The position numbers and the translations under genes were made by a program. This document shows positions 38,711 through 41,238 of a stretch of 64,000 nucleotides of DNA, in pieces; the stretch's first letter is position 1, and each line of letters begins with the position of its first letter. The DNA comes from an uncultured bacterium (GTDB lineage: Bacteria > Cyanobacteriota > Vampirovibrionia > Gastranaerophilales > Gastranaerophilaceae): the NCBI GenBank assembly GCA_902780525.1, contig CACZFL010000005.1, positions 62,001 to 126,000 of the forward strand, in the 5' to 3' direction. A model generated the notes under the pieces. It saw only the letters and a program-made list of their open reading frames with translations. It was not told where the DNA came from and searched no databases.

Positions 38711-38819
38711 ATGTTATAAAAAGTATATATGTGGTATATACAAGTATAATCTCTTTTCTTTATTTTCTCCTCCACTCCTTTATCTAACGAGTTAATGCCG
38801 CAACGATTTGCGGCTTTTT
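38711..38819 (+). ncRNA. Candidate small RNA with exposed CUCCUCC, Yfr1-like layout
   Basis: About 109 nt with three parts. A perfect 5' hairpin, GTATATA / TATATAC with a TGTGG loop, is at 38723-38741. A long unpaired pyrimidine stretch containing CTCCTCCACTCC is at 38767-38778. An intrinsic terminator, GCCGCAA / TTGCGGC then TTTTT, is at 38797-38819. No open frame runs through it. CUCCUCC is complementary to ribosome-binding sites, so binding to mRNA start regions is plausible. Two hairpins around a free C-rich stretch recall cyanobacterial Yfr1, but I cannot claim homology. Confidence 0.4.
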
Positions 38820-38848
38820 GTTTGGGGTAAATGTATAGTGTATTAAGT

Positions 38849-38904: not shown

Positions 38905-40386
38905 CTAAGAATATACAAACGGCGGGCCGTTTTTAATCTCAAAAAGTATGTTATCAGCCATGACTTTTAGTTCTTCAGGGGATTTTCCGTTTTTCTTTTG
39001 CTTCATAAACTCTTCGCATAAGGGTTCTATTGCCGAGTCTTTTTTGGCTTTAAAGTTTCTGAGTTCTGTTGCGACAAGTCTGCGCTGAAGGTTAAGTTCA
39101 ATATCTGCCGAGTATTTTTTTACCTGAACTTCTTTAACGGCTTCTGATGCTGCTTTTCCGCCGTAAGCCAAAGCCGATATTCCTGCGATACCAAAGAATA
39201 GGTTTTTGAATTGAGGATTTTTAGGGTTCATCAGCCAGTCGTAGAAGAAAGATAAGTAGTCGTTTACGTGTGAAAAATATGTTATTTTGTTTCTTCCCGA
39301 ACCGCCCATCATCGGGTTAACCTTCTCTGTTGCCTGATTCATTGTTTCTTTCAAATGCTTTATGTATTCTTCTTTTTCCGCTTTTGGCAAATTAAGTTTA
39401 TTTACGACTTGTTCGATTTCTTCAGGTTTTGCGTAAACTGATTCAAGCATGTTTTCTATTAAAAGTTTATATGCATCTTTTCCCGAAAGCATCTCTCCTT
39501 TGTGTCCTTCAAAATTGTTAAGCGGTTTTCCTGAGTTAAACTCTTCAATTACTATATCTATTCCTGTTTTTGTGTTTTTAATTCCGTTTTTGATAAACTC
39601 GTCGCTTTTTCTGATGTTATGCGATGCGAAATACCCAAGCCCGATAATAGAAGCAAAAGTCAATGCACCAACTCCATACAATAATGCATTATTTTTTGTT
39701 TTGTTGCTTTCGATATTATTATTTTCACCTTTGAAACTAAGCTCGTCAGAAAATATCTTTGCCTTAGAAGAGAGCATGCTTCTTATAATTTGCAATTTTC
39801 CGGAAAAACTTTGCGTTTCAACAGCAATAAGGTTTTCCTGCAAATTTTTCTGAATGTTTGCTTCTTGTCCTTTTACCCAGACTTCTTTAAATCCGTCTAT
39901 AAATATTTTTCCCATAAATGCCATAGCACCAAGTGTAATAACGCCTAGTGATGCAAGAATTGTTTTTCTGTTCGGGGATTGAATCATTGAAAAAATACTC
40001 TGGTGAATTTCGTCGTTTATACAGTGATTACGTGTAATTCCGGGGAGTAAATATTCCTTTGAAGATTCTAATTTACCCCTCGAAAACTTTTTCATCATGG
40101 CTGTAAATCCGCCAAGCAGTCCCATAACACCGACTGTTATTCCGCATATGGGGTAAATAGGATTTACGGAGTGATTTTCTTTTTCTTTGAGTTTTTCGGG
40201 TAAATCGATTTGGTTCTTAGAAATAACAAGTGAATCGTAAGTTTCATCTAACGATAAATTCGGGTCTTTGACAAACGAGTTTACAATTACTCCTTCTTTT
40301 ACAAAGTAATTGTTTTTCTTCTGAGTATTTGTCATATTTTTCTGTTGTCTTGTTGATTCAAGATCCTGATTTATTTTCTGTATCAT
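38905..40386 (-). CDS. Orphan membrane protein with an internal duplication, under a cobalamin riboswitch
   Basis: 493 residues, not recognised. Hydrophobic segments lie near 80-100 (CGITVGVMGLLGGFTAMM), 148-168 (LASLGVITLGAMAFMGKIFI), 232-255 and 390-410 (LFFGIAGISALAYGG). Two segments are clearly related: FKEVWVKGQEANIQKNLQENL near 170 and VKEVQVKKYSADIELNLQRRL near 412, each after a membrane helix. This implies a duplicated helix-plus-coil unit. It starts inside the preceding gene (29-bp overlap), so it is translationally coupled and shares the riboswitch. Confidence 0.65.
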   Translation of the reverse strand: MIQKINQDLESTRQQKNMTNTQKKNNYFVKEGVIVNSFVKDPNLSLDETYDSLVISKNQIDLPEKLKEKENHSVNPIYPICGITVGVMGLLGGFTAMMKKFSRGKLESSKEYLLPGITRNHCINDEIHQSIFSMIQSPNRKTILASLGVITLGAMAFMGKIFIDGFKEVWVKGQEANIQKNLQENLIAVETQSFSGKLQIIRSMLSSKAKIFSDELSFKGENNNIESNKTKNNALLYGVGALTFASIIGLGYFASHNIRKSDEFIKNGIKNTKTGIDIVIEEFNSGKPLNNFEGHKGEMLSGKDAYKLLIENMLESVYAKPEEIEQVVNKLNLPKAEKEEYIKHLKETMNQATEKVNPMMGGSGRNKITYFSHVNDYLSFFYDWLMNPKNPQFKNLFFGIAGISALAYGGKAASEAVKEVQVKKYSADIELNLQRRLVATELRNFKAKKDSAIEPLCEEFMKQKKNGKSPEELKVMADNILFEIKNGPPFVYS

Positions 40387-41050
40387 CTTTTTTTCTTCCC
40401 AGTATTTTGTTGATAAAGGTTTTTAATCTGAAGAGTTTTTTATCCTCGTCAATTTTTGTTTCATCATCTTTTGTATTATTTCGTTTAAAAATTTTAAACA
40501 AATTTTTCAGCTTGGATTTTAGAGAACCTATAAGTTCTGAAACTTTTTTTTCAATAAAAGCTTTTGCTTCTCCAAAAATTGCGGTTAATTTATCCATAAT
40601 ATCTGTAAATTTTTCTTTTAATTGTGTGATTTTTTCACTGATATTTGAAATTATATTTGGCAGATTTGCAATAGTTTTTATTATGGGAATGGCTATATTG
40701 TTGATAATCATTGCAACAGGTTTTAGAGGTAAGAATTTTTGAATGTTGCTTGCAAACTCGGCCATTTTTTGAGCAGCGTTAATCAGACTTTGTTCAAAAG
40801 CTTTAAGTGCTTCTGCTCTTTGAAGCAGAGATTGTTCATGCAGTTTTTGCTGAGCTTCTCTTGCTCTCATCATTGCACCAATCATGGCGCATTCGTGGTA
40901 GCTCATCTCTCCTGCTTTTTGAGGACGTTCACCCGGACGAAGTCCACCGCCTCCGCCCATGTTTGAACAAATAGGACACGCTCCCGGTGCTACACCATGC
41001 GGACATGTTCCTGCTTTATTTACATTTGTTCCTTGAACTGCATTTGCCAA
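40358..41050 (-). CDS. Orphan with N-terminal Cys/His cluster, first gene after the cobalamin riboswitch
   Basis: 230 residues, not recognised. Residues 18-30 hold CPHGVAPGACPIC, then a Gly run and a second HECAM motif near 52: a likely small metal site. The rest is a long amphipathic, Lys-rich helix or coil (MTAREAQ-like then NIQKFL...ISEKITQLKEKFTDIM) with a hydrophobic patch near 110-128. The start is a TTG at 41050: an in-frame TAA directly precedes it, and AGAGGA lies 11 bases upstream inside the riboswitch expression platform. No signal peptide. Confidence 0.65.
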   Translation of the reverse strand: MANAVQGTNVNKAGTCPHGVAPGACPICSNMGGGGGLRPGERPQKAGEMSYHECAMIGAMMRAREAQQKLHEQSLLQRAEALKAFEQSLINAAQKMAEFASNIQKFLPLKPVAMIINNIAIPIIKTIANLPNIISNISEKITQLKEKFTDIMDKLTAIFGEAKAFIEKKVSELIGSLKSKLKNLFKIFKRNNTKDDETKIDEDKKLFRLKTFINKILGRKKDDTENKSGS

Positions 41051-41061
41051 TTAATAAAAAA

Positions 41062-41220
41062 TCCTCTCTTGCGTTTTGCCGCAACAGAAGAATACTTTTA
41101 CCACAGCTTTGACTCGAAACCTGGTATTTGAGGAATAATCATTTGCTCCTCACTCTGGTATTCCGGCTTTAACGGTTGCGGCACAGTCGGGGACTTCCAC
41201 CCCTGGTTTCCCGTATTTAA
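41062..41220 (-). promoter_or_regulatory. Cobalamin riboswitch (class I type), translation-control architecture
   Basis: On the minus strand the conserved core reads in order: GGGAA at 41212-41208, GGTGGAAGTCC, CTGTGCCGCAACCGT and AGCCGGAATACC, which are the cobalamin aptamer signatures. The L5 sequence TGCCGCAAC (41183-41175) is exactly complementary over nine bases to GTTGCGGCA in a downstream loop at 41085-41077, the expected L5-L13 kissing pair. That hairpin sits against the ribosome site AGAGAGGA (41069-41062) of the TTG-started orphan gene, so ligand binding should block translation. Confidence 0.88.
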
Positions 41221-41232
41221 TTTTCGTTTTTT

Positions 41233-41238
41233 ATTATA
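41233..41238 (-). promoter_or_regulatory. Extended -10 promoter for the riboswitch transcript
   Basis: TGGTATAAT on the minus strand. The expected start site is near 41226, just before the aptamer. Confidence 0.6.

Follow-up and report, generated by a model that had tools for sequence, protein, structure and literature searches.

The closest described relatives of the RNA element analysed here are two families of Rfam clan CL00101, Cobalamin (RF00174) and AdoCbl-II (RF01689, formerly AdoCbl-variant), the latter described from marine sequences (PMC2864571). Among B12 transporters, BtuM is a solitary protein of about 22 kDa with six transmembrane helices, and the B12 membrane proteins of most B12-dependent bacteria are still unidentified (PMC6072759). 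We analysed an operon of two genes, encoding proteins that we call P1 and P2, in a 64,000-nucleotide stretch of DNA (the window) from a relative of Candidatus Gastranaerophilales. Its nearest named records are rumen assemblies; P2 is 95% identical in the top one, a rumen assembly whose genus name is doubtful. The leader of the operon shares with both RNA families the core sequence, P4, a short P6, an L5-L13 kissing pair, an expression platform close to the Shine-Dalgarno sequence (SD) and a B12-related regulon. By contrast, leaders in Gastranaerophilales have long insertions and at least three forms, the window scores below both gathering cut-offs, and, unlike the marine sequences of RF01689, the window's switch belongs to a gut Gastranaerophilales host. 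The BtuB-BtuCDF system is under the same riboswitch family and can lie next to P1-P2, but P1-P2 has no sequence relation to it and no ATPase, permease or binding-protein domain. P1-P2 resembles BtuM as a candidate found by context in bacteria without BtuCDF and ECF and as having a conserved cysteine; however, P2 is a duplicated helical protein of about 55 kDa, and the cysteines are on P1.

The locus runs on the minus strand from 41240 to 38905, in the order TATAAT-like box, aptamer, SD-burying hairpin, P1, P2:

41238-41233, minus strand: TATAAT-like box, from the sequence
41225-41150, minus strand: cobalamin-riboswitch aptamer core, matched by covariance model R1 (core also given as 41212-41157)
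41203-41200 (GGGG) with 41192-41189 (CCCC), minus strand: helix P4, from the R1 match
41183-41175, minus strand: L5 kissing strand TGCCGCAAC, from the sequence; covaries with L13 in relatives of the genus
41175-41173 (CCG) with 41165-41163 (CGG), minus strand: helix P6, from the R1 match
41091-41062, minus strand: expression-platform hairpin P13, TCTTCT-G-TTGCG-GCAAAA-CGCAA-G-AGAGGA, from minimum-free-energy (MFE) folds
41085-41077, minus strand: L13 kissing strand GTTGCGGCA, from the sequence
41050-40358, minus strand: P1 (ORF1), 230 aa, TTG start at 41050
40386-38905, minus strand: P2 (ORF2), 493 aa

The two open reading frames overlap by 29 nt, and relatives have TTG or ATG at the position equivalent to the TTG start of P1. 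The upstream neighbour of the operon is a divergent ftsH gene; downstream of P2 are dapB and an aspartate-semialdehyde-dehydrogenase-like gene.

An earlier note, made from the letters of the window alone, had called the leader a cobalamin riboswitch and proposed an Rfam covariance search as the check. That search gave no match at gathering score anywhere in the window, which formally fulfils, for Rfam and for this single sequence, one of the conditions that the note had set for its own refutation. Run on the region alone, RF01689 reached 32.8 bits against a cut-off of 36.5 (E 6e-6 for 501 nt, or roughly 1e-3 if scaled to the window), and RF00174 scored 16.1 bits at the aptamer against a cut-off of 31.5, with no other RF00174 site in the genome. 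Because both scores are below the gathering cut-offs, membership in either Rfam family is not met, and we file the aptamer under the cobalamin riboswitch class without assigning it to RF01689 or RF00174. R1, a covariance model constructed from 38 distinct aptamers upstream of P1 homologues, matched the window's aptamer with an E value of 1.4e-18, the sole site in the window's genome, although the window's own aptamer is among the 38 and its score is therefore partly by construction. Across the order Ca. Gastranaerophilales, R1 matched 182 of 192 genomes. The 38 sequences have an invariant core in common, P4 covaries (11-20 two-sided changes at the inner pairs) and P6 alternates between CCG/CGG and CUG/CAG, so that the conserved core and covarying helices expected of the class are both present. 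Thus, Rfam alone is equivocal on the window's riboswitch, and it is comparison with the sequences of relatives that settles its reality. A chance resemblance, which scores under the Rfam cut-offs would permit, retains practically no credibility, being refuted by this conservation and covariation together with the regulon and the co-loss described below.

The aptamer precedes nrdD-nrdG in many sister genomes, metE in G002 and G009, btuB-btuC-btuD-btuF in the checked loci L105-L113, cobT in G004, OprB porins in G004 and, with cbiM, in G019, and a gene for a B12-binding radical SAM protein in G138. The association with B12 genes that is typical of the class is therefore met (btuBCDF, metE, nrdDG, cobT and OprB-cbiM), and the membrane-transport genes found under the switch are all B12-, cobalt- or porin-related. 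Targets of the nrdDG, metE, btuBCDF and cobT type are the classic B12-repressed genes of B12 regulons, which by analogy makes a cobalamin very probably the ligand, an inference for which there are no binding data. With R1, covariation and this regulon, the call of a cobalamin riboswitch is borne out. Two loci in families f4 and f3 (L145 and L155) have OprB-family porins right behind the riboswitch, in one case followed by cbiM; through these porins, cobamide or cobalt might cross the outer membrane. In L098 (genome G022), an open reading frame at offset 264 from the riboswitch has a metE-like N-terminus (SFGYPKIGENRELK) that continues directly into a radical SAM protein, either a deletion fusion or an assembly artefact.

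The L5-L13 kissing pair of the window is exact over 9 nt, as the earlier note had read it, and the kissing interaction of the class is thus present. In relatives, the L13 strands GCTGCGGC and GTTGCGGTA complement their own L5. Alleles in the window's genus pair CAAC with GTTG and CAGC with GCTG, with hand counts of 18 A-T, 2 A-C, 15 G-C and 7 G-T wobble combinations (Fisher p 1.5e-4, uncorrected for relatedness), and L5 TACC pairs with L13 GGTA in L188, L204 and L205. L13 sits in the loop of P13, the 3' strand of which is the SD (AGAGGA, 41067-41062), wholly paired with TCTTCT (41091-41086); the description of a riboswitch set against the ribosome site of a TTG-started gene is confirmed by this arrangement, and the start codons of relatives support the TTG. 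Over the last 65 nt of 110 unique leaders, the paired fraction of SD bases was 0.81, as compared to 0.62 when the upstream sequence was shuffled; 75 of these leaders had 80% or more of the SD paired. In other genera the platform is shorter, CCTCT...AGAGGATTTTTTAATG; its SD hairpin is conserved but the kissing pair is weak or absent. A third leader form (L045-L048) has no SD hairpin. For the other genera we also considered, as partner of the switch, the P1 helix (distinct from the protein P1; 5' AAGAGG with CCTCTT). It is compatible with the sequences, but its sixth pair ignores CCTCTG alleles; P13 follows these alleles and was preferred by eye for that reason.

By analogy and from folding, we infer a translational OFF switch that is repressed by B12. 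A cobalamin bound by the aptamer would stabilise the kissing pair and the P13 hairpin, burying the SD of P1; P1 would then be translated only under B12 scarcity, and P2 likewise, through translational coupling across the 29-nt overlap. MFE folding of the window's leader forms the SD hairpin even with no ligand bound, and an ON switch therefore remains possible, in which formation of the kissing pair would unzip the inner TTGCG/CGCAA stem of P13 and free the SD, such that B12 induces the operon. The overlap of the 9-nt kissing strand with this inner stem, foldable without ligand, would fit such a switch; however, the outer SD stem (TCTTCT/AGAGGA) is compatible with a simultaneous kissing pair, and the targets in sister genomes are usually B12-repressed, leaving induction by B12 improbable.

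P1 carries an N-terminal CPHG-x5-CPIC motif and a fourth cysteine, with C16, H18, C25, C28 and C54 invariant in 60 sequences, followed by long helices and a charged C-terminus; there is no clear transmembrane segment. P2 is a helical membrane protein in which a segment is duplicated (about residues 140-213 and 391-465; the copies are 40% identical over 50 aa, E 4e-11), the repeat being predicted, with low confidence, as two helices of roughly 75 residues by AF2. The earlier note's description of a Cys/His N-terminal protein and a coupled, internally duplicated membrane protein, neither of them a known B12 transporter or enzyme, is confirmed by these features: searches of Pfam, NCBIfam and PDB sequences gave no family over cut-off for P1 or P2. 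Weak matches to Prominin, PhaR and Apolipoprotein were rejected, as they look like matches of helical composition. The AF2 models of both proteins are poor (pLDDT 57-59), and the best Foldseek match (E 0.045) was taken as noise, so that neither sequence nor fold links P1 or P2 to any transporter. Specifically, neither protein has a FecCD permease, ABC ATPase or PF01497 binding-protein domain, as would be expected of BtuCDF members; the operon encodes no ATPase; and Pfam and PDB profile searches revealed no homology to BtuM, the AF2 model being too poor for a comparison with BtuM's S-component-like six-TM fold and its axial Cys. A literature search, with most subscription journals outside its scope, returned nothing on the operon. 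Judged by their sequences, P1 and P2 are new protein families, unlike known B12 transporters or enzymes. Their topology is likewise inferred: P2 would sit in the inner membrane (or span the envelope), and P1 would be its cytosolic or peripheral partner, with a Cys/His cluster that may bind metal or corrinoid.

Of the 192 genomes of the order, 176 have P1 and 174 have P2; the two genes are adjacent in the loci read. Most of these genomes are at least 90% complete; incompleteness of metagenome-assembled genomes can mimic absence. Both proteins were found only in Ca. Gastranaerophilales, with no P2 in about 110 other members of the phylum. The switch lies upstream of P1 in 79 of 80 named-genome loci, the remaining locus being a contig fragment, and so homologues keep the riboswitch across the order, the outcome on which the earlier note's reading had been staked. 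Of the 10 genomes without the riboswitch, 9 also have no P1 (Fisher p 1.4e-10), and NrdJ is absent from 8 of the 9 genomes without riboswitch and P1, as compared to 46 of the 183 others (p 1.8e-4), both values being uncorrected for phylogeny.

Adenosylcobalamin-dependent NrdJ is present in 138 of the 192 genomes, and the window's genome encodes MetH with both B12 domains. In some genomes with P1-P2 (e.g. G042, G047 and G070) we found neither NrdJ nor a PF02310 domain, and the B12 need of these genomes is therefore unproven. The genomes with the TonB receptor domain PF07715 (BtuB) and those with FecCD PF01032 (BtuC) form an identical set of 15; BtuBCDF is therefore the sole system of this kind observed, and 177 genomes lack it. 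FecCD is absent from G000. The ECF T-component PF02361 occurs in 12 of the 192 genomes and in none of the window's gut family, which does not support an ECF-type B12 importer there. PduO-type adenosyltransferase (PF01923) was found in none of the 192 genomes, despite the frequency of NrdJ; CobA-type PF02572 was outside the search. About a dozen genomes contain both P1-P2 and btuBCDF. In two g20 genomes, the divergent operons stand head-to-head under separate cobalamin riboswitches:

L105, 8945-9243: back-to-back btuBCDF and P1-P2 operons, one riboswitch each
L106, 9114-9412: the same arrangement

Since most genomes have no known B12 importer, P1-P2 is the best candidate, as yet untested, for the missing B12-acquisition machinery, and acquisition would be its most likely purpose. 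In favour of this reading are the B12-repressed target classes in sister genomes, the near-universality of P1-P2 with its switch and their joint loss, the scarcity of BtuB/BtuC and ECF T-components beside frequent NrdJ, the head-to-head operons, the kind of transport genes under the switch, and the SD pairing with kissing-pair covariation; against it stand the missing link to any transporter, the lack of an ATPase gene, the genomes in which no B12 enzyme was found and a switch direction that is only inferred. Regulation by B12, the part of the earlier note's proposed new B12-responsive system that is well supported, is distinct from the choice between uptake, storage and handling, which is inference. 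We lean, only slightly, towards a B12-repressed module of new protein families for B12 acquisition or handling, and regard a transport role as about an even prospect. A more specific proposal is tentative: P1-P2 would be a B12 (corrinoid) uptake system not described before, with no kinship to BtuCDF, ECF, BtuM or BacA, by which most Gastranaerophilales obtain cobamides in the absence of BtuB or BtuC. Coexistence with btuBCDF indicates that the operon is not simply a replacement for it, and would also suit a role in handling corrinoid within the envelope (storage, decyanation, remodelling or delivery), with uptake left to an unrecognised carrier. The four invariant cysteines and one histidine of P1, its lack of a clear transmembrane segment and the dissimilarity of P2 to a channel are consistent with envelope handling; nevertheless, this role leaves most genomes without a recognisable importer, and we consider it unlikely. 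That nrdDG and metE are under the same switch, and that P1-P2 persists where no B12 enzyme was detected, could instead suggest a B12-independent substitute or stress module, as NrdDG is for NrdJ and MetE for MetH. We doubt this strongly: the proteins have no enzyme domain, P2 is a helical membrane protein, and the operon occurs beside very different B12 enzymes, with no single one as its partner. On the uptake reading, an uncultured gut order in which NrdJ is common, BtuB/BtuC rare and a riboswitch-linked unknown pair near-universal presents its B12 acquisition as a testable two-gene hypothesis, and two orphan protein families gain a physiological setting.

Some families of the order have a conserved third small gene (153-173 aa) after P2, as in L105 (11556-12044), L131 (2478-2996) and L150 (2480-2938); two of its products were scanned, without a Pfam or NCBIfam family. 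In the window, a candidate small RNA lies between P2 and dapB (38741-38825, plus strand), with a TATAAT box, a C-rich body containing CTCCTCC (anti-SD-like) and a terminator, GCCGCAACGATTTGCGGC-TTTTT. It bears a weak resemblance to RF02278 (E 0.42) and RF02356 (E 2.5), and its body is invariant across 13 loci of the genus, with variable flanks.
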